Origin: Polytrichum commune
Taxonomy: Eukaryota > Streptophyta > Polytrichopsida > Polytrichales > Polytrichaceae
NCBI GenBank assembly: GCA_950295325.1
Contig: OX485808.1
Span: 4,962,501 to 5,026,500 of the forward strand
DNA: 64,000 nucleotides
Direction of reading: 5' to 3'
Position 1 is the stretch's first letter. Every line of letters begins with the position of its first letter. Of the stretch, positions 15,824 to 57,699 are shown piece by piece. The position numbers and the translations under genes are program-made. Below the pieces are notes generated by a model. That model had not been told where the DNA came from and did no database searches. It saw only the letters and a list, made by a program, of their open reading frames with translations.

Positions 15824-16239
15824 TGCGAGACTGGAAAACCCACATCGTATTCGTCACACAATGATTCATGATTAGATGTGATTTCCTTGACAATGTGAGA
15901 CACCACATCAAATACTCCGGTGATTGGTACTAATTTTTTTGGGGTGGTTCCTCAATGGGAGACCATCATGGCTCCTCTCAGACATGTGGGTGCAATTTTT
16001 GTTGATTTCAACACTATGACCAGCTAAATGGAACCCCATTGTGGGCACGGTATACCCGTGCAACTCTTAATGAAAACCACTAGCATTATAGAGGGCGGGT
16101 TCATTTATCTAATGTGAAGTGTTGTAATTTGAACTTTGAAGTATGTAATGCAAGGTCTGTCCTTTGTATTTGGATGTAGTTGGCATGACTTGTATTAATG
16201 AGCCCTCGGTCTGTCACTGTGCACACCACAAACACCCCT

Positions 16240-16560: not shown

Positions 16561-16593
16561 AAATGTAAAAAAATCTTCACTTTGGGACTCCCA

Positions 16594-16621
16594 AAAGTCC
16601 CGAAATGTTTAATATAGTGTA
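16594..16621 (+). mobile_element. Family A element terminus (second copy)
   Basis: 27 bp (AAAGTCCCGAAATG...AATATAGTGT) identical to 10938-10964 and in the same orientation. It lies about 770 bp past the stop of the DUF7869-type gene, as the family B terminus lies about 530 bp past its DUF7869 gene. Confidence 0.65.
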
Positions 16622-24547: not shown

Positions 24548-24698
24548 ACGTTAAATACCCCCCCACGAACTTTTCGGACTGTCAGAGTCGGGCTGGGGCA
24601 GCCGCCCGGCCAAAAAATCTGAATTTTCTGGACCCGACCGAAAACTGCTGCCCGCCCGCCCGATTTCGAAAAAACCATTGCCCTTGCATTCTTGAAGG
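24548..24698. mobile_element. Long-inverted-arm element 3, left part, split by giant element
   Basis: Starts CGTTAAATACCCCCCCACGAACTTTTCGG, continues with the GCTGCCCGCC..CCCGATTTC arm motif and breaks at CTTGAAGG. The arm resumes at 41448 (AAGGCCACTTACTCACAAATC..TATTGAGTGCACTTCACCTT), as expected if the giant element inserted here. Confidence 0.75.
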
Positions 24699-24726
24699 AA
24701 CACTATATTCGTTAAATTGAGACTTT
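24699..24726 (+). repeat. Left terminal inverted repeat of giant element 1
   Basis: 28 bp starting AACACTATATTCG and ending GAGACTTT, an exact complement of 41420-41447. Confidence 0.9.
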
Positions 24727-24859
24727 TTGGGCATTTTGAGACATTCACAGAAATAAGAACAAGGATAAATGGAACACATATTGGAGAAAGTTGTAAGATG
24801 CGAACACTTTGAAGCGGGTGTTTAGAACAAGAACCCCGTTAATAACTCAATATTTGGGA

Positions 24860-25100
24860 TTGTTTAGGGTGGGCAATCCAAACCTTAGGCCAAGTTGAAG
24901 GGGAAATCTTAAAAAATTCATATTATCGCACAAAAACTTGTATGAATATGGTTTAGGTAGGGCAATCCAAACCATAGATCATATTGAAGGGGAAATATGT
25001 GAACCAATATAATATAACATACAAAATATTCCAAACTCATATTTGTGATGGTTTAGGTAGGGCAATCCAAACCTTAGACCATATGGAAGGGGAAATCATG
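24860..25100. repeat. Subterminal repeats, left end of giant element 1
   Basis: Three units spaced about 90-100 bp apart share TTTAGG.(A/G)GGGCAATCCAAACC followed by TTAG.CCA.(A/G)TTGAAGGGGAAAT. They lie between the terminus and the first coding exon. Confidence 0.8.
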
Positions 25101-25239
25101 TGACACTTATATTATTGCAAAAAAAAAACATACAAAGTGTGGCATGTAAAATGCATAGCATGCTAACACAACACATCCATTGGATAGTGCGACCCAAAAT
25201 GTTCTTGCCTATGGCCCAAAACCGTACGCCTACTATGGC

Positions 25240-26058
25240 CTATCTAGCCTCGGAGACTACCTCTTTTTCTTTTGCTTCATTTTCTTTTGCTTTTTTTTCT
25301 TTTGCCTCTTTTTCTTTTGCCTCTTTTTCTTTTGCTGCGGCTTCTTTTGCTCGCATTGCTTCAACATTCCTGAAAATCTCCGCCCCGCGACTATAGCCAT
25401 TCTTGGGGTGACCGCCATCAATAACACATTTTGGATTCCGTCGGCCGCCCGAATTATACGACGAAGAATTCGAATACGATGAAGTGGACTGTCTTGCATT
25501 TTTGGTCATGGAGTAGAAACGCTCCAACTCGACGGACGCACTAGCCCGCATAGGTCTACGGGTGGGAGCAACCTGCAACGCGTGAATGCAAGAACACACG
25601 TGTTAGTTTAGGGAGGAAGACCCAAACGTGTCACACGTTCATTTTTTAAGTGCCGGATGATTGTAATGCGCGGTTAACCATGTTTTTTTCGGGGGGGGGG
25701 GGTTCACCTTGTCACCGGGGGCGTTCCCGTCGGAGTCGGCGAGGAGGGGCAATGCGTCCCGCAAAGGAATAGGAAGGGTGCCACTCTTCGTAGGCCGAGC
25801 GTCCATCCGCAGCCGCCGTTGAGGTGTACTACTGCCGCCGGGCCGAGAGGGGGACGTCCGGACGCATTTGCGATTTATGCCCTTGAGCGGCGACGGGGAC
25901 GGAGATCGCCGGAAGATTTGCTTGGGTGGGGGGCTATCGACGACGCCGGCGTCAAGAGGCTCCTTGGAGTAGTCGATGGTGGACGCGGCATCGTAGACGG
26001 TCTCGTAGAAGAAGCTCCCCAAGTTTGATTCGCTGACGATCTCAATCGAGGGCTCCAA
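25240..26058 (-). CDS. Exons downstream of the FCP1-like domain, K/E-rich C-terminus
   Basis: Two open segments follow GT..AG-like junctions. The first begins after CCATCAG near 26050; it is Ser/Pro/Arg-rich. The second (about 25580 down to 25240) contains RAKEAAAKEKEAKEKEAKEK-type Lys/Glu/Ala repeats predicted to form a charged helix. They are probably C-terminal exons of the FCP1-like gene or a small separate gene; family A has a similar arrangement. Function unknown. Confidence 0.45.
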
Positions 26059-26180
26059 ACGCTGATGGCAAAATTAAAACAAACAAAACCCAAGGGGAGG
26101 GGGGCAGGGGGGGAGCATGAGAAAATCGATATACAATTGAGGCATACTATATCACACACAATGGCACACCATGTAGTATC

Positions 26181-26998
26181 TCAAATGAGTTTATTATATT
26201 TCGCGTGAGCGTACAACTCTCTGTACATATAGTCCTTCGGATCCATGTATCTTTCGCCTATCGGATTACAACTAAGGAACCGGGGCACGGGTAGTCCGCT
26301 CCCCACGAGCGTTTGAATGTACTTAAGTAGGTCTAACAAAAAACGGTCTCGGACCTTCTCGACCGTCCACGTGGGGCAAACGATGAAGTTGGAGGTCGGG
26401 TTCAAAATGTTTTTGGAAGCGCTGTCGTCCACCATCAACGTGTTGTCACGGGTGGGGCGAACGTCGTAGGGACAGCCGACCATGGTCGGACGCTGGTCCC
26501 ATACGACTGGCTTCAAGACCTTAAGAAATTGGTTTACGGCGGGGTTGTTGGGCTTCTTCACAACCCTGCCCTCGGGGGTGTACAATGTTTTACAAGAATC
26601 CTGTCCTAGGACCAAGCACGGGGGTTGGAGTCCCTTGAAGATGAACTCCACGACGGCCTGGGTATTCTCGGACTTCATGGAGCTCCAAATGATCACCCAC
26701 CATTTGGATAGGGCGACCTGTAGGAAGCGCTGAAGCCACGGGCGGAGGTACACTAGCTTGCTTTTGATGTACGCGGGGGATCCATCGTAGTTGGCGTCCT
26801 CGGGCTTGCAGAAAGGCACCGTGGGGACCCTCGGACAATGCACGCACTGGACAAGGACCCCGTTGAGGTCTAGCACCAGGAACCGGGTCTTGGGAGGCGA
26901 AGGTGGCGAGGGCAAAATCGGGGGGACCACCGCGCTGTCCTCCACACTCCTCGGAGAGGATCGGTGGGGAGTTGCGACGCTATGTTCCGAACCCTGCG
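26181..26998 (-). CDS. Family B FCP1/HAD-like domain protein
   Basis: About 270 residues are readable. The frame stays open upstream of the first ATG-like position to an AG near 26998, so an upstream exon is likely. Landmarks of the FCP1/SCP fold are LVLDLNGVLV (motif I with Asn where the family has Asp), WWVIIWSSMKSEN, PCLVLGQDSCKT and TLMVDDSASKN. The DLNG substitution and the CIWSSM/IIWSSM and VLGQ(E/D) segments are shared with the family A protein at 8858-9646, so both element families keep this domain. Catalysis is doubtful. It could act as a phosphopeptide-binding or RNA polymerase II CTD-targeting module, which is inference. Confidence 0.65.
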
Positions 26999-27434
26999 GC
27001 GACGAGCGAGAGAAGGCGGCGAGGACTATGTTATGTTATGTCCATCTCAAGCAGAACGGAAATTTTGTGCAAACACAAGAAGAATTGGACCATTGGTGGC
27101 AACAAAAACATACAAGGGGAACAACATACATTGGGACACGGATGCAAACATATGGGCGCCAAAAATAATAATTTTATTTTTACAAATCTCTATGTACAAT
27201 TTGATGGGGGGGGGGGCGGTGAACGAGGGCATTCACACTATCCTAATTCTACATCTACAAAATTGGTTGCGCGCCGCCAAGGTCGAGCGTAGTCGAATGC
27301 AGGTGAGACGAAGGGGATCGCGGGGGGGCACGTTGGGGGGAGGGGGAGCAAGTGTAGACCAGGGGGGGCAAGGGGTGTGCATTTCCTCCTAGCAAGGGGG
27401 ACACGACCACGCCAACAAGACAGTGACCCAGGAA

Positions 27435-27456
27435 GTTTGGGTCGGTCGACCCAAAC
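27435..27456. repeat. Single family B palindrome (centre GT)
   Basis: Perfect 22-bp copy between the end of the ParB-like gene and the FCP1-like gene. Confidence 0.95.
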
Positions 27457-29013
27457 TGGGAGGGCTCAGTGTATTACCTCGCCCTGGTCATGTCTTGACG
27501 ATGTGGAAGCCTCCACTGTCCCCGCTGCCCCGCCTCTCTCGCCACCGCCTTCTCCGACGACGTCAGGAACCTTCTCCTGCAAACGATCGGCATCAGGCCC
27601 TTGTCCTAAACCAATCTCCGCATGTGCATCATGCATGGGTTCATCGATTTGGTTAGGAGTAGAGGTATCACCAGGCCCTTGGAGGCTTCAACATCTAACA
27701 TGGTTGTGTCTCTTTGAGACACAAGTTCGTAAAGGGAAGACTGAGCTGCTTTGGGGTTTGGGTCGCCCGACCCAAACTGTCCTGCATCTGGAGAGGGCCC
27801 TTCGGACACTACAGTGGATGGTGGGTTTGGGTCGTCCGATTGGTGGGGTGGCGCCATGACTATGGGGGGCCGAAGTGGTGGAGGGCCCAAAGGGGAGGAG
27901 GCTCCAGAGACACGCCAGATGTTGGGGTCATCCACTTGCTGGACCGGCGCGTACGGAACTTGGTGGGGCCGCATCAAGTGCTGGAAGCTAAAAGACGATT
28001 GCGGCACAGGCTGCTGAGGGATGCTCTGCGGAGGGAAGCCGGGGGGCAAGTGCGGGAAGGAGCTGGAGGGAGCCACCACCAAACCTTGCGCCCACATTCC
28101 TTGTATCACTTGTGATATCAAGTCGGCGTGGGACGGAGGTTGGGCCATCGCCCTTTGACGCTCCTGCTCCAACAGGAGAGCCCTCAGCTCTGCTACCTCG
28201 TTCCGCATTGAGGGTTCTTCCGCGGCAGCCTTCTGCAGGCGGACTCGCTGCTCCTCGTCCCTCCTCATTTTCTCGTTCGCCTCCTCCACAATCAGGACCT
28301 CGGGCTTCACCTTAATCATGCCAGCGAACGCTGTCGGGGACGGGGGATCTGATCTTAGCCGTTTGGCGAGCTCGATGTCATCGTCGTCCTCGCTGCTTAT
28401 GGCAATGGTCTCCTCCACGGAGTAGTCGCCATACAGCTTCTTCCCCTTTAACTTCCTCCTCTCCCTGAACGTCGCGGTGGCGTCCCTGGAGTACATGTCC
28501 CGTGCATCGTCCACAGTCAGGACGGGCACGAGCTTACTCTGCGGGGTTGCCGCCCGCATCGCCTTCTTCCGTTGAGGGGCTTCGGATTGTTGCGTGAAGA
28601 TTGTTGCCCCTTCCTCGACGTCGCCTTCCTTCTCCGCCTCCTCGTGTTCCTCTTCTTCCTCCTCCTCCTCCTCAACCTCGCCACCTTCTGTGCGAGACGG
28701 ATTGCCCGGATGCAACCCGACCAGAGGTTCGGGAACTTGGGTCGTGGCCCTCATGGCCATTTCCTCCGGGTTGATGCGCCTCACCCTATCAAGAGGGTTT
28801 TCGCGACCCAGAACAACCTCGTCGACGTAGCTACCCGGGATCCAATCGAGGATGTCCATCTTCTTCGCCAGCGATTTTTGCACCCTATAAAATGGCAGAT
28901 CGCCATCCTCTATGTAGGAGTATATATTCAGCCCCGACATCTATACAATCCAAGTTATAGGGAAATTAGAATTTGTCGAGGCAGTCACATAAACAAGACT
29001 AAGTGAAATGTGT

Positions 29014-29108
29014 AGTTTGGGTCGGTCGACCCAAACCTGCAAAGAGCCTAGTTTGGGCCGGTCGACCCAAACCTGCAAAGAGCCTAGTTTGGGTCGATCG
29101 ACCCAAAC
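29014..29108. repeat. Three palindromes in intron 2 of the ParB-like gene
   Basis: Copies start at 29014 (centre GT), 29051 (one mismatch) and 29087 (centre AT), about 37 bp apart and separated by CTGCAAAGAGCCTA. Confidence 0.95.
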
Positions 29109-30558
29109 TGCTTACGAGCTATAGAAAGTCACTTACCATAGCAGCATAGACAGGTTTTGAGCCTCCGAAGACGTTGAAGATGCAGTCCCCTCTCCTCGTC
29201 AGCGTCCTCATCATTCTCATGTAAAATTCCATCCGCAGCTCATCTGCAGGATAGTTCGCGTATTTAGCCTCGTCGTAGAGGCACTTGTTGGCACCCAACC
29301 CTTCTGGAACTTGGAAGAGTTTGTCCATCCGGGATATAGGGTGGTTCGGCACCTTCAGCAACTCCGCTTTATACACGAAGTACAAACACAAGACGTTGAC
29401 GAACTTGGTCTTCTTGTCCTTCAACGTCGTGTAAGCCCCCTCCGCCGGTGCGGCGATGTAGTGAGACTTGGACACTGCATACTCCGGCTGCAGTTTCCGG
29501 ACAAGCTCGTACACCTGCTCCGCCCTTCTATCCTCGACTATCCAAAGCCAGATATCTACCTCCCTGAACTTAGGGCTTGCATAATCGACGAACTTAGTTA
29601 AGAAGGGGTCGTAGAAGAGGGTGCTCATCGTGCCCTCAAATGAGCTTCCAGGAATATTTCTAAAATCAATCATCCCAAAAGGAAAGCGGTCCCTTGCTTT
29701 CGTCCTTATCGCCATTCTGGCGTCTTGACCTGGCCAGCCCTGAATTTTCAAAGGCTCGAAGGTGACAAGGTTGAAGTAAGCGTCCCCTTCAAACTGGACA
29801 ATCTTCTTCTCCTTGATGAAGTTCGAGAACGCACGCGCTGTGTGATCCGGAAGCGCCCGGTTCTTCCCACCCTTCACCATCCTGGCCCGCAAGAAGTCGT
29901 CCCCCGCTTCCCTTATTAGAGCCGCCATGGAGGCACTGGTGAACTTATATTCATCTTTGAATGCTCTCCAGTTAGCCTCATGAACCTCGCCGTCCACGAC
30001 AATATTCCTCTCTGGCACCAATTTATGCAGCTCCTGCACGATAGTCGTCTTCTTTTTCCTGTTCTCCGTCCATTCCTTCATGGTGTAGCATGAAGGAACG
30101 AAGGATTTGGGCTTTACGAAGACAATCTTCGGGTGCACCCAGCACCTCTTGGCCGTGGGTGCCATGTGCAGGATGTGCGATGCCGCCTTCTCCACCTCCG
30201 TCTCTGACAGCCCTTGAAGAGTTCTAAAGAACTCTCTCACGAGAGGCTTCATCTGCTTGAAGCGCGAGGCCAGGCTGAAAAAAGCGCCAGTGTCGGGGTC
30301 GATCAAATCCCCCGTCTCGTGCTTTTCAAACATGGTTTTCCACTTCCTCCAAACTGAGTCCGATGTTGTAATCAAGTAAATCTCCCCCTTCAGGTCACTG
30401 TATTTCTTCTGCTTGTGGCTCGAATTATCAATGGAGGAGAATTTGTTGATCATTTGGTATTTGAAATCCTGCACGTGAACAAAACATAACATTTGAATGC
30501 GTGTTAGTTAAGTACATATGATTTTCAAACCATATCATGACCAACATCTACAACAAGA

Positions 30559-30727
30559 GTTTGGGTCGGTCGACCCAAACTGAAAAAAAACACAAGACTG
30601 CAACAGTTGTTTGGGTCGATCGACCCAAACTAAAAAAACACAAGACTGCAACAGTTGTTTGGGTCGATCGACCCAAACTAAAAAAAACACAAGACTGCAC
30701 CAGGAGTTTGGGTCGGTCGACCCAAAC
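30559..30727. repeat. Four palindromes in intron 1 of the ParB-like gene
   Basis: Copies start at 30559 (GT), 30609 (AT), 30657 (AT) and 30706 (GT), about 49 bp apart, with A-rich spacers containing ACACAAGACTGCA. The last ends 10 bp from the exon 1 donor. Confidence 0.95.
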
Positions 30728-32087
30728 AATATTCACCTCCCACTTGGGATTCTTGTCCTTCGCATTCTCCCTCTCCTTGGGAGGCCTACCATAGAACTCC
30801 CACACCTCCCGCGAGGCCATGATATTCCTTATCCAGGAAGCTTGGTAGGCCCTCTTCTTGTTTCCCATATTGAAGTACCGGGAGATGTCGCTGAGCTTGG
30901 TCTTGTCGTCAGACCACACCACCAGTGCCTTCCAAACCTTCAGCTTTTCCTTCTAATTGTTGGGATCGTCCCACTTATTCATGAGTTGGATTTTCTTGGA
31001 TGCCTCCACGCTGTGTTGGCCGTCTATCAGCCAAAAATCGCCCTTCTGAATTGTTGGCCACATTTCAGGTGTAGGCATTTTCTTGAGACCCTGTGGCATC
31101 ACTACAATCGTTTGCCTGTCGTCTTTAAACTGCTCGCAAATGATCTTCGCGATTATCCAGTCAACGTAGGCGTCCTCCTTTGCCCGGACACACTTCTCCG
31201 GTGGCGCTAGATGGCACTGGCTGATGTTCACGTCGAACTTGAAATCCCTGCCCATGAAAAAACAGTGGGAGCATTTCGTCGTGAAATTGTTCACGATTTT
31301 CTGCAGCTCCCCTGCATCCACCTCTTTGCCGGGCTTCGGCATGCGCAACTCCGGTGAGACTGGCTCGTCAGTCATCACAGATGACTCTCTCGCCCTCTTG
31401 GATGGAGTTGTTTGACGGCTCCCAGAAGGTGTAGGGGTCTCACTATTCGTAGGTGTTTGGGAGGGAGTGGTCCTACGCGAGTCAGCCGGTACTGGTAGCG
31501 GCATCCTCACCGATTGAGGTCTTAACGACCCTGCTCCTTCCTCTGTGGGAGCTTTCCGCCTCACAGGTTGCTGTGATTTGGTTTTGCTTTGCAGGCCCCT
31601 GTTCAGCACGGTTATTGCATGTTTTAGTTTTGTGAACCGGCTTGAGACCTTGGTATTCGATGTACTCCCATCGATAAATATTGTCCCCGGCTTGATAACT
31701 TCCGGTTCGACACAGGACTCTCTTGCATAGAGTGCGTCGAAAGGCTCGGAGAACTGGTGCATGAACATATGCGCGTTCTGCACAGCCGAGTTCTCGAGGA
31801 TGACGTCGGTATAGTCTCCAAGAGAATGTACCGATGCGACCTCCCATCCCGTAAGAGTCGCCCAGGTGTGTTTCTCCACGGTTCCCACCTTGACAACAAA
31901 AATCATTTTGTATGTTGAGGCTTTGACTACTTGAATAGACCAAGCGAGGACAAGCCCGTCCTTAGGGGAATAGGAGCCATCCTGCGGGGTTTCGTGCTCC
32001 TGCCACAACATGTCCGGCGCAGGCATGAACCACCTTTCGCCGGGTCTTTTCTTTGGAGCCATCTGTAAGAAAATAATGTGCAAAGTT

Positions 32088-32512
32088 AGTTTCGGTCGTT
32101 CGACCCAAATATCTACGACATGAATAGGTTTAGGTGGATTGTGTATTTATATATTTCAGCATCATTTGTAATGATAATAAGAATGTTGTGATTATTGGAT
32201 GGATTTGCATTTTATATTGTTTGTGACATGCAGGATTCCTTGATACTTTTCCTTGATACATTCTTTGATTATTATTTTGGGTTGATGTGAATTTTATATT
32301 GATGCAAAAATCATGGATTTCTTTATGAGTTTATAATTAGAAGACTTAGTTTGGGTCGTTCGACCCAAACATGATGCTTTGTGTTATATTTTGGTCGTTC
32401 GGCCCAAACATGATGCTTTGTTTTGTGTTTGGGTCGAGCGACCCAAACAAGGGGCTGTGTTTGGGTCGGTCGACCCATACAAGAGGCTGTGTTTGGGTCG
32501 TCTCCCCAAACA
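32088..32512. repeat. Palindrome group in the leader of the ParB-like gene, giant 1
   Basis: A degenerate copy at 32088, then copies at 32349 (TT), about 32389 (degenerate), 32426 (AG), 32458 (GT) and a half-palindrome near 32490. They are upstream of the start codon and upstream of the AG acceptor, so within the presumed leader intron. Giant 2 has its larger array (58571-59347) at the same relative place. Confidence 0.9.
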
Positions 32513-32739
32513 GTATTATTTTAATGTATTTTTTAAACTTGGCATCTAGCGTATACAATGCTTATGCATTGTGTATGCTACAAAACCGTGAATATACAAA
32601 CACATATTGGTTAAAATAAAACAAAATACCTTTCAAAGATGTTGTGCAGACAATTTGGAGTAGAGCAGGTTGTTCTTCCAATAATTCTCAATATCAAACA
32701 AACTGTGAGAAAGTTCAATGAGAAACTTTCAAACAAGTA

Positions 32740-33030
32740 TCAACTCTCTCAAATAGCTCTTGGATCTCTCAACCAACTCCTGAATCTCACACGGAACTAC
32801 TGAATCTCTCAAAAGACTTCGAAATGTCTAAACCAACTCCTGAATCTCACACACAACTACTAAACCTCTCAAAAGCCTTCGAAATGTCCAAACCAACTCC
32901 TGAATCTCACACACAACTACTAAACCTCTCAAAAGACTTCAAAATGTCTAAACCCACTCCTGAATCCCTCACAAAACTACTGAATCTCTCAAACGACTTC
33001 GAAAACTCTCAAACAACTCTTGATACTCTT
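32740..33030. repeat. 60-bp tandem repeats in leader region, giant 1
   Basis: Four to five units of about 60 bp share AACCAACTCCTGAATCTCACAC and CTCTCAAAAG.CTTCGAAATGTC. The 60-bp period is a multiple of three, so an open frame runs along the plus strand, but transcription of this unit is expected from the minus strand. Confidence 0.85.
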
Positions 33031-33356
33031 AAAGAACTCTTGAATTTCACAAGCACTCCTAAAACTTCCAGTACAAACACCTGGACCTCCCAAACCGAAG
33101 CTTTATCTACTACCGAATGTTCTACTAACTTCCTTCAGCACTTTCCAATACTCTTCAACACTCTTTTGCTAACTTCCTTCACTCTCACGCTCTAAAACCT
33201 TCCTCCGTATGTTTCTGTTTCTTTCAAAACTCTTCCTAACTTCTAAGATTGCACAAGGGCTATTCTATTGAAGAGCAAAAGAAAGGAGGGAAAAGAAGAT
33301 GCAGAAGAAAGCAATGAACGCGGGAGAATGAAGGGTTAACCTACACCAAGCCTGAT

Positions 33357-33415
33357 TCGCCGCGGCGCTTTGCGAAAGCGGCGCTTCAGGAGAGGCGGCG
33401 CTTCCAAGCGAGGCG

Positions 33416-33473
<58 letters not shown>

Positions 33474-33475
33474 AA
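33357..33475 (-). promoter_or_regulatory. GC block and CT-rich leader start of the ParB-like gene, giant 1
   Basis: On the minus strand a (CT)n run of about 50 bp is followed by repeated AAGCGCCGC motifs. Giant 2 has the same combination in front of its copy at 57700-57940 (GGCGCCGCCGC, AAAGCGCCGCC within CT-rich sequence). This marks the probable transcription start region. No convincing TATA box was found next to it. Confidence 0.5.
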
Positions 33476-36415
33476 TGAGAAATGCGACGGTTGGGGTTTT
33501 GTTTACCTCGGGCATTGGCCCCCAACCGCATGAATAGGGTGCCCACAGGATTAGGGCACCCACGGAAACAGGGTTACAGGGAACCCTAAAACCTAAATCA
33601 TAACGCTTGACTCTAAACCCTTAGCGGGCCTACCTCTTTAAGAGTACATAGGCTATTTGCCTCATAGCATAGGTTGCATTCTACAATATCAACTTTTTGT
33701 AAGTTGAAAACCTTTTGAGTTTGTAAGTTCCTCGCCAATTGCCTCAAAACTAAATTTTAGTAGGTTAAAATCCTTCATATCTTTTAATGTTGTAGGTTTT
33801 AAAATCAAAATTTGAGTACTAAGTGGGATCCTTGGCAGGAATTGAACCTGGCTAAGCCTTTCACCACGTTTGAAGGCCAAGGATTAACCAAGTCCTTTTT
33901 AAAGAGTTGATTATAAGTTTTGAAAGGTTGCTAAAATTCAAATGAGTTTCAGGGTGAAAGTTCTCACCATGTTCTCATTCAACCTCTACTCTTCCTGCAA
34001 GATATAGCCTAAAGATATGCACTTAGGCCAACTAATTTCCCAATTTGAAGAAGGATGAATGGCTAAAATCCTTTCTTTTAAAAAAAATTTAGGCAAAATT
34101 TCCTAAATGTTTTTATCACATAGGTTGATATCCTATGTTTTTAAATTGTCCATAGGCTCTTTGTCCTACACTTTCAAAATTTTATAGGCTAAGTCACTAA
34201 TTTTGTAGGCTGCATTTGTTTTAATCGGTATATTCGTTAATTTGGGATTTTTTCGGCATTTTGAGAAAGTTACAAATATAAGAACATGGATAAAATCGCA
34301 CGTACATTGGAGAATGTTGTAAGATGCAAATACTTTGAAGCGGGTGTTCATATCAAGAACGCAATTAAGATCTCATATGAAGATGGTTTAGGTAGGACGA
34401 CCCAAACATTACACTATGTTGTTGTGGTCCATATATTAATTTGAGAGAAGAGAAAATCTCAAATTAGCAAATTTTAGGGTTTAGGTTCTTTTGGACCCTG
34501 CTCTAAACCCTTATTAATTTTTTCAAAAGAACTATGGAGTACCCTAAGGTGCTACATAAAATGTGTTATTCTACAAAACTAACCATTTATATAGCCAGCG
34601 CATTCTTACAACAAAACTTTATGCTAAACTAATACTTATCCCCTACTTACATGACACCATACCCTAAATTTTCCAAAATCATTGAAGGCATTGGTTTCTC
34701 TTTTGTTTGAGCATGTTAGAAAATTTAAACCATATAATTGCGTTATATTTAACGATGTAACCATTCACATTTAGTCTTTACCAATGATGCCAACAATTCA
34801 CACGATATTGAATGAAAAAAAAGAAGATTACCCACACCCCCCAACATGTGGAACAATTTAGAATAATTGAGTGTGGAGCCTAATAAATGAATACCTTCCC
34901 CAACTGCATTTTGCAAGGGTTTTGAAATGCACGATCCTTATTTGAAAATGCGAACATGCTCAAGTTTTAAGTACATCCCTTAGATCGTGACTTTCACGAA
35001 TCACATAGTCGCCAATAAATCATGGTTCATGATATATTTAATATATAGATTGTGATATAAGAGTAAATGGGATAAGCACAACATCAAATGAAGCCATTCA
35101 AGCAATCATGTTGTTATTCCCTGTTCCTTCCATGTATATTAGATGATGGCGCAAGATAAAATAGATGTTGTTTGTATATGGGGGCATCAGTGAACCACAA
35201 CTACATTTGGTGTTTAGGGTTTAGGAGATAGGAGATAGGAGATAGGAGATAGGGTTATAACATATTAATCTATCCAATGTCAATGTATAACATTGTCTTA
35301 CTCGTGAGAAGAGTCTTATAGGAAGGTTATAGTGAAGACGATGTTGATTATGTTAATTTGTTATTTGAGACGTTTAAACGCGATATATTGATTGGTCGTG
35401 TGTTTATTCAAATAACATGAAATATTGTGGATGTTAATAGGGGCTAGGGGTCCAACTTTGGATGTTTCGCTCACTTTAGGGAATCACATATTAGTCGCTA
35501 ATAAACCATCGTTCATGATGTATTTAATATATGGAATGTCATGTAAAAGTAAATCGGAGAAGCACAACATCATGTTGTTATTCATTGTTCTCTCCACGTG
35601 TATTAGATAATGGAGGAAGATATAACAGATATTGTTTGCATAATATGAAGAAGAGTCTAATCGGAAGGTCATAGTAAATACAATCTTGATCATGTTAATA
35701 TGTTATATGGGACGTTTAAACATGATATCCTAATTGGTTTTGTATTTAGTCAATGCGTATTTCATGTTGTGGATGTTATAAGGGTTTAGGGTCCAATCTT
35801 GGATGTTTTGCTCTCACATATTAGTAAACTTGAAGTGAACTTGAGGATGAATTCAAGTAACATTAAAAGATTGAACTAGAAAGGGACATTGGTAGTTAGT
35901 ATCCCCTTAACAACGTCCACATACGTTCGTCATTGCCACTCTTGCATGCGAGATAATAGAGCAAGGTTCTAGGGTTTAGGGTTTAGGGGGGACAAATAAA
36001 TAATTCTATTCATCATGACAATGGCCTCAAGCCTTGGAAACTCTCTCATAATTGCAGCCTCCAAATGGCCCAAACCCCACCTAAATAGGTTTACACTTGA
36101 AAGCATTGAATGGAGTTGTGTTTGGGTCTACATATTGGTTAAAATATACCTTGATGATACTTGAAAAAATTAATGTGGCCGCCACCCTTCCTCCCAATGG
36201 CGTATGTCATATCCACACAAAACAAAACAAATAGATTAAATAACATAGACTAAGTCATATGACGGCTGGGGTATCAGAGGGGCATTGATAGATGCGCATT
36301 TTTCTACTATAAACATAAAACGGGGAATTCTGTCAGGAGGTTTGAAATAACCTCTGCAAGAGAAGAAGGCGGGGAAGACATCCAATGACTAAGTCTGGGA
36401 AGCGGAGGTGGATAG
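33476..36415. other. Central region of giant element 1 between divergent genes
   Basis: No coding capacity seen. It holds a 260-bp deletion derivative of the element (34222-34482), a direct duplication with a period of about 480 bp (34990-35400 and 35480-35830, sharing AATAAA.CAT.GTTCATGAT.TATTTAATATAT and CAACATCATGTTGTTATTC), and a short (AGGAGAT)n run at 35222-35258. The duplicated block has a related, rearranged counterpart in giant 2 around 56700-56880. Confidence 0.6.
34222..34482 (+). mobile_element. MITE-size deletion derivative of the family B element
   Basis: Its left half follows the left end of giant 1 (TATATTCGTTAA..GGCATTTTGAGA..GTTGTAAGATGC.AA.ACTTTGAAGCGGGTGTT). Its right half follows the giant's right end (CCATATATTAATTTGAGA..AGAGAAA.TCTCAA). 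The ends are degenerate relative to AACACTATATTCG. A homologous piece is present inverted in giant 2 near 56860-57010. Confidence 0.7.
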
Positions 36416-36422
36416 TATAAAG
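36416..36422 (+). promoter_or_regulatory. TATA box of family B DUF7869 gene, giant 1
   Basis: TATAAAG in the context GGATAGTATAAAGGGGCGC. Giant 2 has the same AGTATAAAG on the minus strand at 54843-54849. Start of transcription would be near 36450, putting the palindrome array in the leader or its intron. Confidence 0.65.
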
Positions 36423-36726
36423 GGGCGCACCCCCCAAAAGTCGGTCATTTTTTTCTCTTCTCCCGCTGTCGAATTCGTAGAGAGAACTCTTAGTAGGAGC
36501 TGTACTTCAAGGTTCGTGCATGCTGCCGTTCATGAGCACTTATCCATAGCATGCAAGTTCATGAGCACCTATCCACACCATGCAAGCCCACCGTGAACTT
36601 TGCAATGAGCTCAAATTCAACACACCACGCAATATCCGCCGCATTATACGCCGGATTTTGTGGTGTACTTGGGCGAACCTTCACCTTTACACTAGTGTTG
36701 GCGGGTTTTGAGTCTGACCCTATGAG

Positions 36727-37672
36727 GTTTGGGTCGACCGACCCAAACCTGTCCACTAGTGTGTTAGGGTTTATGTCTGACCCTTAACATGTTTGGGTCG
36801 GTCGACCCAAACCCCAACCCCAGTGTGTTAGGGTTTTTGTCTGACCCTTATCAGGTTTGGGTCGACCGACCCAAACCTGTCCACTAGTGTGTTAGGGTTT
36901 ATGTCTGACCCTTGTGAGGTTTGGGTCGGTCGACCCAAACCCCTACCCCAGTGTCTTAGGGTTTTTATCCTGACCCTTATCAGGTTTGGGTCGACCGACC
37001 CAAACCACTACATGGTGTGGGTGGATGTACTCTTGTGAGGTTTGGGTCGGTCGACCCAAATCCCTACCCCCAGTGTGTTAGGGTTTTTTCCTGACCCTTA
37101 TCAGGTTTGGGTCGACCGACCCAAACCCCTACGTGGTGTGGGTGGATGTACCCTTGTGAGGTTTGGGTCGGTCGATCCAAACCCCTACTCCAGTGTGTTA
37201 GGGTTTTTTTCTGACCCTTGTCAGGTTTGGGTCGACCGACCCAAACCACTACCTGGTGTGGGTGGATGCACCCTTGTGAGGTTTGGGTCGGTCGACCCAA
37301 ACCCCTACCCCCAGTGTGTTAGGGTTTTTTCCTGACCCTTATCAAGTTTGGGTCGACCGACCCAAACCCCTACCTGGTGTGGGTGGATGTACCCTTGTGA
37401 GGTTTGGGTCGGTCGACCCAAACCCCTACCCTTGTGTGTTAGGGTTTTTTTTCTGACCCTTGTCAGGTTTGGGTCGACCGACCCAAACCCCTACCTGGTG
37501 TGGGTGGATGCACCCTTGTGAGGTTTGGGTCGGTCGACCCAAACCCCTACCCCAGTGTGTTAGGGTTTTTTTCTGACCCTTATCAGGTTTGGGTCGACCG
37601 ACCGAAACCCCAACCCAAGTGTGTTAGGGGTTCAGTCCGACCCTTATGAGGTTTGGGCCGGTCGACCCAAAC
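36727..37672. repeat. Sixteen-copy family B palindrome array, alternating centres
   Basis: Copies start at 36727, 36791, 36855, 36919, 36984, 37040, 37105, 37161, 37225, 37281, 37346, 37402, 37467, 37523, 37587 and 37651. Spacing is 56 or 64-65 bp. The central dinucleotide alternates strictly AC, GT, AC, GT; AC and GT are complements, so successive sites point in opposite directions. Spacers are themselves repeats (GTGTTAGGGTTTTTxCTGACCCTT and GGTGTGGGTGGATG). The array lies between the TATA box and the start codon of the DUF7869 gene. Confidence 0.97.
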
Positions 37673-37848
37673 CCGCACCAAAATAATTTCTGGAACTTGT
37701 TTTGGACTTGCACACAGTGTTGGGAGTTCACATTGTAGTTGTGTTGGAAATGTCTTCATCCTCGGTGTCCCCATTGATCATGGTGTCTTGCATTTTCCGA
37801 TATTTGATTCTTTTGGACCCTTACATTCTTTCCATGTGTGTAGGCGCA

Positions 37849-40800
37849 ATGGAGGGAGTTGGTGGAAGAGGGGATTCCTTCTCTAACGACATGGGCAACA
37901 CCCAATCTACGTCTGGGGATGAGCTAGACATTGTTGGGGAGGATAGTTTTGATGACAGTGCAGATGAAGGTGACTTGGGGAGTCCTTCGCCATTTGCCCC
38001 TTCTTGCCCCACTGTGGAATGTGCTGGGCTTTCACGAGCTTCATGGGTGAATTTGGATGTAGTACTTGTTAATGACAGTGGAGTTGCTGTGGCGGAGGGT
38101 ATTTGTCGTAACACACATCCAGAAGATTGCATTGATGAAAACCCCCTTGGCACCGAGGACGTTGGAGTTGTTATATTGGAATCACTCGTACATTCCGAAG
38201 TCAATCCAACTCATAGGTTCTCGTTGCGAAGGTGGCTGTTGAGGAATGTGACAATTGATGGGGTTAATTTGCATGAGCATGAGCGACGACACATCCAAAT
38301 CCAAGAGGAGCTCCAAGTAAACATTCGGCCACGCAAAGGCCTACGGAAGTACGATACATTGGCACGTCCTACTCCGTCTGCAAATGAGTGTAAACGTCAA
38401 AGGTTGCTTTGTGAGGAGTCCATTAGAGAAGTTGCCACAAAGGATTGTTGTGTACATCGTTGTTGCCAATTGTTCCCAAGGGATAAATTGAAGGCCATCC
38501 GCGAGGAAATGTGGCTTGGAGATTTCCGTCTAAGATCCACCAAAAAGCTTGATGTCCATAGGGCGATACATGTGAACGGAGCGGGTCGCAAGGTCATCAC
38601 CCTTGAGAGCATAGACGTGTGTTGTACCGCATGGTACATCATTCACGGTGTGTCGAAAGCGGAATTTTATAGACAAGCCGCGTATGCCAAGGAAGGCCGC
38701 CGGTCCCGTCACCATGGGAATACGGGCTTAAAGAAACCAAGGGAAGCAACGAGACAAGCAACCGCCACTCTGGTAACCATCATTGTCCCCCTTGCCGATG
38801 CAATGCCGCACAAAACACGCACACTCGCAACCGGTGAAAAGGTTGTGGAGAAGGTTCTTCTTATAGGCACGAAATGGAAAGACATATTGTTGGACGTAAA
38901 CGCAGTTGGCGAGAAGGCTGGGTTGGACCCTATTTCGTTGTCGAAACTGAGTGCAATAAAAAAATCTTACTTTAGCGAATACATCACAAAAAGACGAGGC
39001 GACAAATTTGCCCGTTGTTCCAAATGCGAGAAGTTGAAACGCCTTCGAGATGCACACACGATGGGCACAGAGTCCTATGCCGCACATCAAATGAACTATT
39101 TCAAGCATGTGAACATGCAAGAGGCACACCGTAATGATTACTACACAAATAGAGCTTTGTCCATCTCTAGGCCTTTGGAGGTCCTTACAATCATCCATGA
39201 CAAAATGGACCATGCCAAAACAGCCTCACCATGTTTTGCAAATCGAATAAAAGCCACGGACGGCCTTTTTAAGCTTCCTGTATCGGTTACAGGTGATTTC
39301 GATAACAATTGCATTGCATTACCTAAACACAAATTTGTGCTTTAGGTTTGTACTTGGGGCCATAGATGTATACCATGTGAATTTTTTGGTGTTATAGTTG
39401 AATATTAAACCATTGGGTTGGCTTTACAGGGATGATTGCACATGGACATGGTGATGTCAAGTATGCTCATTATGCTCTTGATTTGTATCCAGCGGATTCA
39501 AACCACACGATAGGGTCATTTGCAAAGCTTTTACGTGATTTGGAGAAACCGCCGTCCTATTCATCAAGATTGTTATTTGAAAACTCGGGATCAACACCTC
39601 TATATGAAGCGGTCTTGGATGGAAGAGATGTATGCGTGCACTCCTTGCCGGAGCCACCAAATGAAGATGTGATTGCCAAGAATTTGCCCCCAACTCTGCG
39701 TGTCCAATTGGACAATTGTGCGAAGAACAATAAAAGTAGATATGTTTTTGCATATTGGTCGTTGTTGGTTGCGAAAGGCATTTTCAAGGAGGTTTTTGTG
39801 TCATTTCTATTGGTAGGCCACACGCACGACGATATCGATGCATCTTTTGGGCGGTGGAGCATGAAGTTGCGCGAGGAGGATTTTCCAACAATCCCATTGT
39901 TGATGAAGTCGTACATGGATTTAGAGAACATTCCCGTCATCCCCCATATGATCGAGGAGGTTCCAGACTTCAAGGCATTTATAGAACCGTATATTCGAAG
40001 CGGAGCTCACCGATTGATCGGACATACGAAGGCACAACAATTTCGGTCCTACGTGCGTGACGATGGTGTCCCCGCCATGCAATACAAGTTGTTGTGCACG
40101 TCACAAGACTGGAGCCCGCCGGAGGGTCTTCTTGTGTGGCGCGTGGATGCGGATGGGAAGACCATGTTACCGGATGGGGAGCCTAGCCCTTGTAAGCCAA
40201 TAGCCATGAAGAATTTGGAGGATATTTTGAAAGGTATATCAGGCTTCATACAATATTGGGAGAGTTTGAAGATAGCGGATGTTGGCGGATCATGTTGGCA
40301 TCGTTATGGGAGTTGGATACATTATTGGACACGTGTTCGTGCCGCCTTGGTAGACCTCCACCAAGATAGCCCTCGTACTTTGAGGCATGGATTTTGGCCA
40401 CAAACACGAGTCGATGTACAAGCTTCAGAGGCTAGTCTTTTGGAAAATGGAGAGGTTCGAGAGGAGTTTGATGTGGACGACCATTACGTGAGGCCTGCTA
40501 GTAGTCGTCCGCCACCATCTTTCCGCATTGCAGTGGATTGTCATGAAGGATATATGCTCATTTTGCGTCCTGGAGACGAAACATATGTGAAGCCAGTGTG
40601 GGTGGCAAGAGCTTTGTCCAAACCCAATTTTGTAACTTCCAGCCCTCATTTTCGGCAAATACAAGTGGAGTACTACCGACCGACGGCAAGGAATGAAGAT
40701 GTGATTCGGCATTATACAGGCTGGGATACAAACCCTAACTTTCGGTGGAAGGTGGATTCTGAGCACGGTCCATCTTGGGTAGATACAGATTCCATATTCA

Positions 40801-40916
40801 TAGCATGGAAACCACGGAAAAATCATAGTGGATCAGTGTCCATCCCTCAAAAATACATAACTTTTGCAAAAGACAACCTTGCTCGGATCGCAGAAGAAGC
40901 AACCCACGTTGAATGA
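37849..40916 (+). CDS. Family B DUF7869-type protein, candidate transposase (exons 37849-39292, 39430-40916)
   Basis: Two exons joined by a GT..AG intron that splits a Gly codon give 976 residues with no interruption. The start ATG follows an acceptor (TGTGTAG). An acidic N-terminus is followed by CCVHRCCQLFPRDKL, the zinc-ligand-like FARCSKCEKL with His residues, and the HDKMDHAKTASPC motif. After these come VQLDN (Asp about residue 576) and GHTHDDIDASFGRW (about 612-622). DUF7869 has no assigned activity that I know. The position next to a terminus, one copy per element and spaced acidic residues suggest the transposase. It is the best candidate for an intact enzyme in the window. The family A copy at 12645 is a clear homologue but lacks this intron. 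Confidence 0.85.
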
Positions 40917-41419
40917 GAAGTTGGTAGGATTGTGTTAGCATGATTATAGTGTAAACAGTAATTCGACGAATATATATTACTCATATGTGTGCTCCTCAAA
41001 CTTGGGGCAAAGTTTGGGTAGAACTTGCGAATGCTATATTGTTTGGGGTTGGATGAATATCCATTTACTATATTTCAATACAGTTGTGAAGTTCATTTTT
41101 TTATTAAGTTTGGGACTAAATTTTCCATTGAAGAAAAATGCATTTATTGCATGTACTTTGTATGTTGCAATGTCTATATTTTATTGACCATGCTAATAAT
41201 AGAAATCATTTTATATGTTTTTTGGGTGAAACTAGTTTGGAGTGCTCTACCCAAAGTGTTTTTGTTGATGAAGTTGGTGTTGAGTGCTCTACCATATGTG
41301 CTTATGTCCACACCCCATAGATTTGGGATATTAGAACATATAATATATTTGAGATTGTTCGCAATATAGTTTCGGAACACGGAATGTTGTTTGATCCATA
41401 TATTAATTTGAGACTAGAG

Positions 41420-41447
41420 AAAGTCTCAATTTAACGAATATAGTGTT
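41420..41447 (-). repeat. Right terminal inverted repeat of giant element 1
   Basis: Exact complement of 24699-24726, ending AATATAGTGTT. Just inside, CTCTAGTCTCAAATT forms a small hairpin with the repeat. Confidence 0.9.
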
Positions 41448-41990
41448 AAGGCCACTTACTCACAAATCCCATATTGAGTGCACTTCACCTTATTTAACCC
41501 CCAAAACATAATTATTGTGCATGTCCCAAAAAACATTGCCCGTCCTATCCAACTTCAAAAAAGAAGGTTACCTTTGCAATCTTGATGGTCGTCTTATTCA
41601 CAAAACCCCAATTGAGTGCACCTCACCTTCAAGGTCAAAATCCAAAGTATATGTTCACCTCCATTGAGTAAATAAGCAATTGGTTGTGATTCATCCCCAA
41701 AGCAAAACCGTCAATAAAGCATGTAATTAACTTGGAAGTTTAAAATATGAAATAATTCTCGATGTGAGCAATGAGGTGATAATTTTCGTGACTTTCCATT
41801 TGAAAAGGCCTTTGTCATTTAAAATTGAACTTACAATATTGTGTCGATTTTAGCTAATTCGTTTTTGTAATATTTTGGTTGACATTTCCTGCTTTCATGA
41901 GTATTTATACACATTCAAATTAATTGAGTGCAATTGAGCATAATTGAACGTAATGAAGCGTAATTAAGAGGCTATTTCGGTATCTTGAAT
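41448..41990. mobile_element. Long-inverted-arm element 3, right part, plus another single arm
   Basis: 41448-41492 continues the arm broken at 24698. From about 41495 a further arm of the same family begins (CCCCCAAAACATAATT..TTGCCCGTCCTATCCAACTTC..CAATAAAGCATGTAATTAACTTGG), with no opposite arm recognised. Confidence 0.65.
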
Positions 41991-44728: not shown

Positions 44729-47700
44729 TTAGGGCTTGATACTCGCCTTCGGTTGAGGACATGAAACTGCAGTTTGTGACATGCTAGCCCAGGTGATAGG
44801 GCTCTGGCCGAGCTTGAATAGGTAACCAATAACAGATCTGCGAGTGTCGGAGGCGCCGCTCCAGTCAACATTTGTGAAACCGGAGAGGTCATTGGGGTCG
44901 CCATGGGCGTAGAAAAATCTATGTGTAGGGGTATGCCAAAGGTAGCGGAGGATAAATTGGGCTGCTTGCAGATGGGCGAGTTGTGGGGCTTGCATGAAGC
45001 GGGCGACCTGATGAATGGCATGAGTGATATATGGGCGGGTGTTTGTAAGAAAGATCAATTTTCCGATGAGGCGTCGGTAAAGGGTTGGATCAGTAGGAGG
45101 GGACTCCATGTTGGGGAGGAGTTTGATGTTATGTTGGAGGTGGGTGTGGGAGGGGTTGGAATGCAACATATTGAATTCGAGAAGGAGGTGGTGGATGTAA
45201 GCGGTCTGGTGGAGGTAAAGGCATCGGGTTGTGGGGGGGAATTCGATTTCAATGTACTTACGAATCGGGCCCAGGAGGGTCATGTCGTATTTGGATTGTA
45301 ATTGATTACAAAGCTAGGGGATGCGAGAGGAGTCGTTGCCGGTGATGAAGATGTCATCCACGTAGATGATCAGAAAAACCCAATGGTTAGGGGTGTGGAG
45401 GTAGTACAAATTGTGATTGGAGGAAGTGTGGAGAAGGTTTAGATGTAGGAGATAGGTGTCAATGTCTTGATACCAAGAGCGTCTAGATTACTTGAGTCCA
45501 TATGTGGCGTGGAGTAGGAGAAGGACCCAATGTTCCTTGCTTTTGATCACAAAGCCAGGTAAATGAAGCATGTAAACCCGTTGTTTGAGGTAGGCAATCT
45601 TGACATCCTTGTGTAGTATAGGCTAACCACGATGGGCAACAACAACTGCGGTGGATTGTAATGTATTCCATTTGGCAACGAGTGCATAAGTCTCATCATA
45701 GTCAATGCCAACATGGTGTTGACAGCCATGGACCTTGTATCAATCAGGCATTTCCAAATGGCTGGTTTTGATGGCGAAAACCCATCTACAAGAGACAATA
45801 GGAGTGTCTAGAGGGTGTTCGATAAATTGACAGGTATTGAAGTTTTGTAGGGATCGTAATGTTTCCTGCATGGTGAGGTGCCATTGGGGGTGGTGAAGAG
45901 CTTCCTGAAAGGTAATTGGTTATGAGGGAGCTATGGTTAGGCACTTTGTGGCCCCTACGAAATCATAGAGGTGTTTGGGAAAGGGGGGCTGGCGTGAGGA
46001 GCGGCAAAGAGGGGGTTGCTGTCTATAGGTGGGAAGGGGGAAGGGGTGAGCGAGGGTGGTGGGGGGGGGGGGTGTGAGTCGGGGAAGACGGAGAAGAAAG
46101 GTATGGGGTAGATGATAAAGGAGTTAGAGAGTATGTTGGAACTGGGACTCGAACTGAGAGAAAAAGGTGAGTGGAGGGAAATAATTGTTCGAGGGGTGAA
46201 GGCGTTTGTGGATTGGGTTTAGGAGAGGAAGTTGGTGGTGAATATCGATGTTCGATGAATTCCACATCGCGAGACAATTATTTTGTGGGTAATGGATTCA
46301 AAGCAACGATAGATTTTGCTTGGAATGTCATATCCTACTAGAATACATTTGGAAGTTTTAGGAGACAATTTGTCTCTTTTGTTTGAGGGAATGTGTACAA
46401 ATGCAGTGGAACCAAAGACACGGAGGTGAGAGACATCACACTTGTATCCGAAACACAATTCTTCAGGGGTAGAATGTGAGTGACTTTACTAGGTAGTCAA
46501 TTGTGGAAGTATGTTGTTGAAATTGCTTCCGCCCAGAGTCGTTGAGGTAGGTCCTGATTGGGAGTGAGGCATCCGGCGGTTTCGAGGAAGGTGCGGTTGC
46601 GTCTCTCAACGATGCCGTTTTGTTGAGGGGTGGCGGCCATGGTTAAATGGCGTTGGATGCCATTATCTTGGCAATGTTGGTTGAATGTATGTGAAGTAAA
46701 CTCTCCTCCTCTGTCTGTCCGGATGGTGATGATTTGTAGCCATGTTTATTTTCTGCCGTGCTTTGAAAAGCTCGGAATTTGTCGAAGGTTTCTCCCTTTT
46801 TGTGAGAAAGTAAATCTAGTTCTTTCGGTTGAAGTCATCGATGATGGAAAGGAAGTAGTGAGCTCCTGAATAAGACGCAACATGTGCTGGTCTCAAGAGG
46901 TTTGCATGTATTAGTTGTAGGGGCTTAGAAGCCCTTTGTAATGTAGCTTGAGGGAAAGGGAGTCTGCACAGTTTGTCGGCTACGCAGGTTTCGCATGTTG
47001 TAGCATTCTCTGGGAGGCTTGCCGGTGTTCCATGCGCTAGTTGTTTGTGAACAAGGGTATGAAGTCGCCTTTTGTTGGGGTGCCCTAGTCTGGCGTGCCA
47101 TAGTGTGGCAAGATTAATACGAGAGGTGACATTGATTTCTATGCAATTGACAAAGATGGAGTCCTTAATGCGGTAGAGGGAGTTGATTGAGTCTCGGACT
47201 CCTTTGATGAGAGTCTGGTTAGTATGCTTGTCTACAACATGGCATACATGAGGTGAGAAATGGATTGTGAGGCCTTGATCTTCTATTGATCCTGCAGAGA
47301 ATAGGTTCTTGGTGAGGCCTGGGACGTAAAAAATGTTTCCTATGGTTTTTATTTCTCCACTTGGTAACTTGATGACGACAAACGGTATTCCTTTGACGGA
47401 TAATGATTGACCTCCTGTTGTGTGAACTACCTTGTCATGTTCGACTGGTCTGATATGAACTAAAAGATTACGGTTGCTTGTGACGTGGTTTGATGCCCTT
47501 GAGTCAAGGTACCAAGCAACCAAGTCATCTACGATGGCGAGTGCGTTGTTGCTATGGTTTTGTGAGATCATTTCAGTGAGCAAGGTTTTTGTTGTAGCTG
47601 TCTTGGGGTAAGGCAGAGTTGTGTCTTGAATGTTGTGTTTGTCCTCGTGTTCATCGCTTCGGACGTTATGCTTGAGTCGGCCTTGGTGATGGTATTCGTC

Positions 47701-48430
47701 GGAGTCTTCTTCTGAGTCGTTTTCAAGGTCGTAGACAGAATGAGCTTTTGCTTTGCAAAGGTCACGCCTCCTTAGTTTGAGTTTGCGTACTTGCTCAGCT
47801 ATTGACTTGAGTGGGCTCTCTCTCTCTCTCAGTGTCTTGCTTGTCCACAATTGTCACACTTGCCATCTCGATGTCTGTTAGATTCTCTAAATCTGCCTTC
47901 AAAATCTCGTGTGCGTCTCTCGTGTCCTCGATTGTTTCTCCCTCTAAAGTTTGAAGAGAATCGAGGTCTCTCTCCTGACTTGTACGACGAATGTCTTGTC
48001 TTGTAACAGAGCATCGTCTATAGGATCTGGTCTGTCGCTTTTGAGGCTGATTTCCTCAGATATGAGCTTGGCTTCTATGTTTCCCAAGGGAAGAAACTTA
48101 TCTCTACTGATTAGGGACTGTACAAAACCTTTGTACAGTTTTGGCATGGCATTTAGTACCATGATGGATATGAGTTCCTCTGGTAGTGCTAGGGCTATTT
48201 CTCCTAGCTGGTCGACCAAGGTTCTGGTCTCTAAGAAGAAATCGTCTATCTTCTGTGTGTCACACATTTTGAGAGACAGAAGCTTCTATAGAAGCATGAT
48301 CTTCCTAGACGAGCTACTTGAAGCGTATCTCGTTTTGAGAGCATTACATACGTCATATGGATCTTTGAACGTTCTAACATACTGATGAAAAGAGTGATGA
48401 ATAGAGAGGTTGATGATAGAAAGAGCACGT
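44729..48430 (-). pseudogene. Copia gag-pol, degenerate
   Basis: Gag-like frames span about 48430-47829 and include a CDNCGQARH half zinc knuckle. 47850-46816 contains a protease segment reading LDSRASNH where the family has DSG, a GAG-pre-integrase region (LWHARLGHP..CETC) and the start of the integrase core. 46458-46023 holds the integrase C-terminal region. The reverse transcriptase YVDD motif is visible at 45353-45364. 45283-44729 covers the end of reverse transcriptase and RNase H (GFTNVDWSGASDTRRS), after which the frame shifts. It cannot encode an active polyprotein. Confidence 0.85.
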
Positions 48431-57690: not shown

Positions 57691-57699
57691 AGTGACCTT

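Follow-up and report, generated by a model that had tools for sequence, protein, structure and literature searches.

Large plant DNA transposons of the CACTA/EnSpm (CMC) group combine terminal inverted repeats (TIRs), two main proteins and internal repeats, and their subterminal repeats are transposase binding sites or transposition enhancers. VANDAL elements carry a MULE transposase. For VANDAL21/Hiun of Arabidopsis, a multi-gene DNA transposon with an accessory protein, the published account (PMC5735166) describes how VANC binds a short, directional motif of 9 bp that is concentrated in noncoding DNA of the family to which VANC belongs, both within introns and upstream of VANA; the arrays arise through tandem duplication, and their motifs differ from one related family to the next. 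The Kyakuja-Dileera-Zisupton (KDZ) group and other fungal elements carry accessory TET/JBP genes whose products may affect silencing, and the target-site duplication (TSD) of Zisupton is 8 bp (PMC12730594). Here we describe an element from Polytrichum commune that is to be compared with these three systems. It lies in a stretch of 64,000 nucleotides, the window (GenBank assembly GCA_950295325.1, contig OX485808.1, positions 4,962,501 to 5,026,500 of the forward strand), where it occupies positions 24699-41447 as a complete DNA transposon of 16,749 bp.

The element resembles CACTA transposons in its general anatomy and in an end that contains CACTA, but it has two extra bases before CACTA, a TSD of 4 bp and not 3 bp, another transposase candidate, and repeats that are not subterminal. 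With VANDAL21/Hiun it shares a set of several genes, a putative accessory protein and family-specific motif arrays in noncoding DNA; it differs in its 28-bp TIR, its 4-bp TSD, a DUF7869 protein in place of the MULE transposase, and a motif that is a 22-bp palindrome. Like the KDZ elements it has TIRs and a candidate accessory protein that may affect silencing, and its TSD length differs from that of Zisupton. We read it as a large TIR transposon in which the DUF7869 protein would be the transposase and a protein of about 1650 residues an accessory factor, and in which an element-encoded protein bound to the palindromes would sustain transcription, most likely against silencing; we give this reading a probability of roughly 0.6. 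Its nearest working parallel would be the anti-silencing of VANDAL elements by VANC, a likeness of analogy, since neither a MULE transposase nor a VANC homolog was matched by Pfam in the open reading frames (ORFs) of the window and the full gene models. The literature on ParB-type plant transposons, superfamilies with 4-bp TSDs and giant plant transposons held no match by title or abstract; the combination of "transposon" and "DGQHR" led only to bacterial comparative genomics and GmrSD restriction enzymes, and no paper naming DUF7869 was found. The element or its superfamily may already be known under another name, Repbase having been outside the search.

Ends, insertion sites and copy number

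The left TIR, AACACTATATTCGTTAAATTGAGACTTT, lies at 24699-24726 (plus strand) and its exact complement at 41420-41447 (minus strand), with the TSD AAGG on the outer sides at 24695-24698 and 41448-41451. The element end reads AACACTA, CACTA being bases 3-7 and base 1 being fixed by the TSD boundary. When 70 bp of the left flank and 80 bp of the right flank are joined with one AAGG, they align across the junction to uninterrupted relatives of a host repeat, one downstream and two upstream (one per strand); these are paralogous empty sites, that is, repeats within the window. The original prediction, made from the letters of this stretch, had claimed the perfect 28-bp repeats, the AAGG duplication and the interrupted host repeat, and was right in all three. 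It had also proposed a complete multi-gene element of an unusual kind, which the 11 full copies and TSD checks described below support; the copy number and the palindromes had been overlooked.

The host genome (408 Mb in 64 contigs) contains the 28-bp end 1029 times forward and 1031 times reverse at up to three mismatches, with no match to the reversed control pattern. Element sizes were taken from the first 100 end places listed, using only the 37 neighbouring plus/minus pairs within 60 kb, 24 of which span 14.4-18.6 kb. Ten further full copies, selected by size, were added to the window copy, and all 11 are 16.4-17.4 kb long with perfect TIRs at both ends; the two 4-bp TSDs of each copy are identical, and every copy has a TSD sequence of its own (AAGG, ATAA, GTAA, TATA, ATCT, AAAA, ATAG, CATT, ATGA, ACAA and ATCA). 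Thirty end loci (L003-L032) gave nine pairs of neighbours by position, with identical TSDs in eight and AGTA against ACTA in the ninth (L016/L017). Five of these nine insertions are also among the ten full copies, so that 15 insertions were paired by position, 14 with an exact 4-bp TSD and one with a single mismatch. In two more distant pairs, L023/L024 (146 kb apart, CTAC) and L025/L028 (81 kb apart, ATAG), the TSDs agree as well, although these were matched after the tetramers had been seen, so that selection accounts for part of the agreement; including them brings the count to 16 agreeing TSDs out of 17, in 15 different sequences. Each of the 11 end-locus pairs consists of one left-type and one right-type end. 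The many insertions of similar size, with the same ends and 4-bp duplications, for which the original prediction had suggested searching the host genome, are thus present there.

Copies E03, E07 and E10 are 99.2-99.5% identical to copy E05 in the first exon of the large gene (exon A, below), and activity must therefore be recent; in two of the 11 copies (E05 and E07) no stop or gap interrupts any of the six main exons. Evidently, the element is a very abundant and recently active transposon. If most of the 2060 ends belong to full-length copies, it fills about 4% of the host genome, an estimate that rests on the partial check of length given above (24 of 37 neighbouring pairs).

Some copies show a more complex history. 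E02, E04, E06 and E09 diverge from E0 in a mosaic fashion, the right part (3.6-6.9 kb) being 89-90% and the left part 73-80% identical, and in the same four copies the stretch at 25639-26073 is less diverged than exon D of the large gene; both observations point to recombination or conversion between subfamilies. L025 and L028 (C1:21257955 and 21338596) delimit an 81-kb composite, in which the ATAG duplications flank an insertion of this family that itself holds the insertion L026/L027 (ATTC). At L009 and L010 (C1:3961117 and 3975699) the two ends point the same way and their outer tetramers, GCTT and AAGC, are reverse complements of each other; this is possibly an element with an internal inversion, or chance.

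The two conserved genes

Gene models were built on copy E05 (L041/L042), in which the frames are open; positions below are those of the window copy. The DUF7869 gene (plus strand) has two exons and 983 codons in the E05 model, which matches Pfam PF25273, a family annotated as of unknown function, with E 8e-44. Exon 1 lies at 37834-39292 and exon 2 at 39430-40916, the latter matching PF25273 with E 4.6e-41, as expected from the DUF7869-type gene in the original prediction; the full model scores 150 bits against a gathering cut-off of 26, over profile positions 54-191 of 192 only. The splice junction (...VTG/MIAHG...) is borne out by a third relative in the window, 55% identical, which has the same stretch as one uninterrupted frame (13721-15823). 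Three acidic motifs, HDKMD in exon 1 and QLDNC and GHTHDDID in exon 2, are unchanged between these two families and are proposed as first, second and third members of a catalytic triad. On such sequence features the protein is probably a DDE/D transposase. In the host genome PF25273 had 1491 first-look places, and all 150 that were scored lie above the cut-off, while none of 14 control genomes had a match.

In the E05 model the large gene (minus strand) is 1651 codons long, with phase-0 introns separating its four exons: exon A at 30737-32062 (442 codons, with a DGQHS motif), exon B at 29137-30468 (444 codons), exon C at 27478-28940 (495 codons in E05) and exon D at 26181-26993, which encodes an NIF/FCP1-like phosphatase domain. 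The window copy is broken by a stop in exon A (30953-30955) and by a frame shift in the third exon, C. The domain matches PF03031 with E 5.7e-14 in the window ORF and E 4.6e-12 at residues 1420-1611 of the full E05 model. The original prediction had recognized this FCP1-like domain correctly but had assigned it to a gene of its own, next to a ParB/DGQHR-like gene of about 1,330 codons; on the E05 model the two are probably one four-exon gene, and the ParB kinship found no support in profiles. To the left of this gene model, on the same strand, a further coding stretch at 25639-26073 (dN/dS, the ratio of nonsynonymous to synonymous divergence, 0.15-0.36 in E02, E04, E06 and E09) belongs either to the same gene or to a third one, and a possible further one at 25240-25602 would encode a K/E-repeat protein, 82% identical over 84 residues in the second element of the window.

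Both genes recur in all 11 full copies and are under purifying selection. Between E05 and E02, E04, E06 and E09, dN/dS in the large gene is 0.05-0.08 in exon B, 0.16-0.17 in exon C and 0.20-0.21 in exon D; in exon A, compared between E05 and the diverged copies, dN is 0.09-0.12 with dS saturated. For the DUF7869 gene, the values for E05 against E02, E06 and E09 are 0.18-0.19 (exon 1) and 0.13-0.16 (exon 2). Copies more than 99% identical, whose ratios of 0 to 1.84 reflect very few changes, were left out.

The catalytic motif of FCP1/NIF phosphatases is DxDx(T/V). Family 1, as we call the present element and its close copies, reads DLNGV here, and a relative of the domain at 8798-9646 reads DLNGI, with the second Asp of the motif replaced by Asn; the domain is possibly inactive. 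That relative (plus strand) is an FCP1/NIF-like exon 32% identical to the family-1 domain, situated just inside an end of another family (10938-10965), and it lies on the same strand as the neighbouring DUF7869 gene, whereas in family 1 the two are on opposite strands.

In a Pfam scan of nine window ORFs and the two full models only NIF and DUF7869 exceeded the cut-off; there was no CACTA-type transposase among them, nor a TET/JBP domain in the element ORFs and full models. This agrees with the original prediction, which had found the ends CACTA-like and the duplication length and gene content not; of the 3-bp duplications and En/Spm transposase that it had named as contrary evidence, neither was seen. 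Relatives of the genes with other ends, named likewise, do exist, as the third relative in the window shows, but they are members of another family. No viral or prokaryotic relative of either protein was confirmed with short peptide patterns, matched by 2, 1, 102 and 19 stretches and so narrow that the absence is weak, and plasmids gave no match to patterns of the same narrow kind, which is equally weak evidence.

Family-specific palindromes

Family 1 carries GTTTGGGTCGnnCGACCCAAAC, a perfect 22-bp palindrome of the form 10+2+10 in which the central two bases are free. Each full copy of the element has 21-31 exact sites; together the 11 copies have 264, along with 82 sites that differ at one position. 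Twenty rounds of shuffled controls contained no such site within four mismatches. Genome-wide there are 9231 exact sites and none for the control, and in the window, at up to five mismatches, the palindrome occurs only inside the two family-1 elements. Sites with at most one mismatch recur at the same places in all 11 copies (exon coordinates come from E0 and E05 and were transferred to the other copies by position): the leader of the large gene, its three introns, one spot in exon C, and an array upstream of the DUF7869 gene. In the window copy the array comprises 16 palindromes with 0-1 mismatch at 36727-37672; a cluster with 0-3 mismatches lies upstream of the large-gene ATG at 32089-32480, others in intron A/B (30559-30727) and intron B/C (29015-29108), and single palindromes in intron C/D (27435-27456) and within exon C (27756-27777), the latter in frame and read as FGSGDPN. 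The outer 2.6 kb on the left and about 3.8 kb on the right are free of sites with 0-1 mismatch in the 11 copies; near the left end there are three degenerate palindrome-like repeats with 4-5 mismatches (24862-25072).

Other DUF7869 loci have different 10+2+10 palindromes upstream, of which three are exact and a fourth kind is not. When the elements and loci retrieved by then were scanned without bias for perfect palindromes of this form (1349 alignment rows consisting of dashes only were ignored), the scan returned 300 family-1 sites, five of GATCCACTCGnnCGAGTGGATC, two of GTTTCACTCGnnCGAGTGAAAC and six singletons. The third relative in the window, family 2 (11992-16621, plus strand), has a GTTTCACTCGnnCGAGTGAAAC array, a DUF7869 gene at 12592-15823 and the end TACACTATATTAAACATTTCGGGACTTT at 16594-16621; the array upstream of its gene, at 11985-12514, is of the GTTTCACTCG kind, with two perfect members and the rest degenerate. 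A family-2 end, AACACTATATTAAACATTTCGGGACTTT, at 10938-10965 recurs with one mismatch at 16594-16621 and resembles the family-1 TIR. Palindromes of the GATCCACTCG kind (55 sites in the host genome) flank the family-1 insertion L025/L028 on one side; its other side has a DUF7869 exon that shows 72.7% identity to that of family 2 in the window.

The geometry of family 2 guided the choice of three further places, L057, L058 and L059, which lie some 2 kb upstream of other DUF7869 matches and were picked with their letters unseen. L057 has five sites of the CCCACGGGTGnnCACCCGTGGG type, three perfect and two with one mismatch, 2.1-2.4 kb upstream of the DUF7869 domain. At L058 and L059 a scan allowing two mismatches, run afterwards, brought out a common consensus, TTTACGGACGnnCGTCCGTAAA, with six and three sites. 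In a Markov-resampled control for sites with at most one mismatch, five were observed at L057 (0.090 expected, 0/300), four at L058 (0.043 expected, 0/300) and two at L059 (0.033 expected, 1/300). Window DNA outside the elements, 25.1 kb in three stretches, holds ten such sites (distributed 5, 5 and 0), of which nine are simple repeats of A and T; a single near-palindrome therefore means little, and it is the recurrence of one sequence that counts. We use "family" provisionally for the kinds at L025/L028, L057 and L058/L059. The relatives thus have a palindrome of their own at the corresponding position, which suggests, from these sequences, a private system of self-recognition.

Clusters of the family-1 palindrome at C1:438279-478028 and C1:2154319-2159887, partly spaced at 32 bp, are not bracketed by the exact TIRs listed and perhaps represent other families with the same palindrome. 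As for the remaining content of the window, a nested, MITE-like derivative of about 257 bp (MITE, miniature inverted-repeat transposable element), made from both ends of the same lineage, lies inside the element at 34224-34480 (plus strand), and a second short stretch of this sort at 56843-57002 is likewise nested in an element of the same lineage. The latter is the second family-1 relative, truncated and in reverse orientation (51766-64000, minus strand), which continues to 66979 in window numbering, where an exact TIR is found. Adjoining it, at the expected place of its DUF7869 exon 2 and right end, is an intact ORF of 470 residues (49006-50418, minus strand) for a DUF247 "plant protein of unknown function" (E 2.1e-47). 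Fragments of a Ty1/copia element at 44729-47853 show clear gag pre-integrase and Pol_BBD matches, with RVT_2 below the cut-off.

Reading of the palindromes

In the reading that we favour, the DUF7869 protein, as an enzyme of the RNase-H/DDE type, would act on the 28-bp ends, excise the element and insert it at a 4-bp stagger, with the protein of about 1650 residues as accessory factor. The latter, or another protein of the element, would bind, in dimeric form, the 22-bp palindromes that are specific to the family and stand at both promoters and within the introns of the large gene, and would keep the element transcribed, most likely by countering host silencing as VANC does; the FCP1-like domain would be the effector. 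The CpG observed/expected ratio, 0.79 in the elements against 0.58 in 30 outside flanks, fits anti-silencing, but young age and coding content also explain it and we do not rely on it.

Several observations weigh against this reading. The putative RNase-H fold of DUF7869 found no structural support: both AlphaFold models, one of the intron-free family-2 frame (mean predicted local distance difference test, pLDDT, 34.1) and one of the core of that frame plus three additional window rows (29.6), are of low confidence and unusable, and a PDB profile search with DUF7869 returned nothing at E 10. The strict palindrome scan was negative at L058 and L059, whose sites all have one or two mismatches and none of which is perfect. 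In L057-L059 themselves nothing homologous to DUF7869 or to the large gene was found, so that their link to a DUF7869 gene rests on distance, and the four best PF25273 loci (L053-L056, ±1.5 kb) have no such palindrome, their flanks ending before the predicted place. Some palindromes in the genome lie outside the brackets of the exact TIRs listed, and homogenisation of tandem arrays could explain part of the conservation of the palindrome.

The palindromes might instead be transposase binding sites or transposition enhancers, with no regulatory role. They are element-specific and of the dimer type, they are most numerous upstream of the DUF7869 gene, and, like the DUF7869 proteins, they vary from family to family; all this would suit such a role. 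Their placement speaks otherwise: the outer parts of all 11 copies lack sites of 0-1 mismatch, only degenerate forms occur near the left end, and the good sites sit in introns and promoters. We regard this explanation as unlikely.

Rather improbable, in our view, is a passive origin of the palindromes, in which slippage and gene conversion would have homogenised tandem or dispersed repeats that no protein binds. Many copies do stand in tandem arrays, with periods of 32-121 bp, and the mosaic divergence between subfamilies points to conversion. Yet clusters of different period share the 22 bp and little beyond, the one strong preference outside being for a purine next to the palindrome (447 of 528 sides). 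The arms of ten bases are constant and the two bases between them variable, and at other DUF7869 loci the same layout is built from other letters.

We are more doubtful still about a partition- or replication-like system, in which a ParB-like protein would load at parS-like palindromes and spread. A DGxHR motif is typical of the ParB/sulfiredoxin superfamily, and DGQHS in exon A resembles it, the sole feature of the large gene that points towards ParB; the sites, too, are palindromic and multiple. Pfam was compared with the full model and with seven members of exon A, NCBIfam with the exons of the window copy, and the PDB by profile search; neither single sequences nor a profile of seven sequences matched a ParB/Srx family, however, and we rejected the kinship as unsupported. 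That we are dealing with an ordinary CACTA/EnSpm element with captured genes can practically be dismissed, and this identity was dropped: bases 3-7 of the end do read CACTA, but two bases precede them, the TSD is 4 bp in 14 of the 15 insertions paired by position, and the ORFs scanned contain no CACTA transposase domain.

A bolder view, which we hold tentatively and at somewhat less than even odds, is that these elements form a new superfamily of giant plant transposons, each family bearing, at promoters and in introns, a private 22-bp palindromic address that is read by a co-evolving element protein and confers protection from silencing on its own members only, an independent invention of the VANC strategy. 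The present work describes a type of transposon with an unusual TSD and gene set, and it gives DUF7869 a likely identity as a mobile-element protein and a likely role as an enzyme. With several families, each with its own palindromes, thousands of sites and recently active copies, P. commune offers a candidate test system for the race between transposons and host silencing. Should the palindromes prove to be addresses for anti-silencing, the strategy of VANC would be general and no peculiarity of Arabidopsis.

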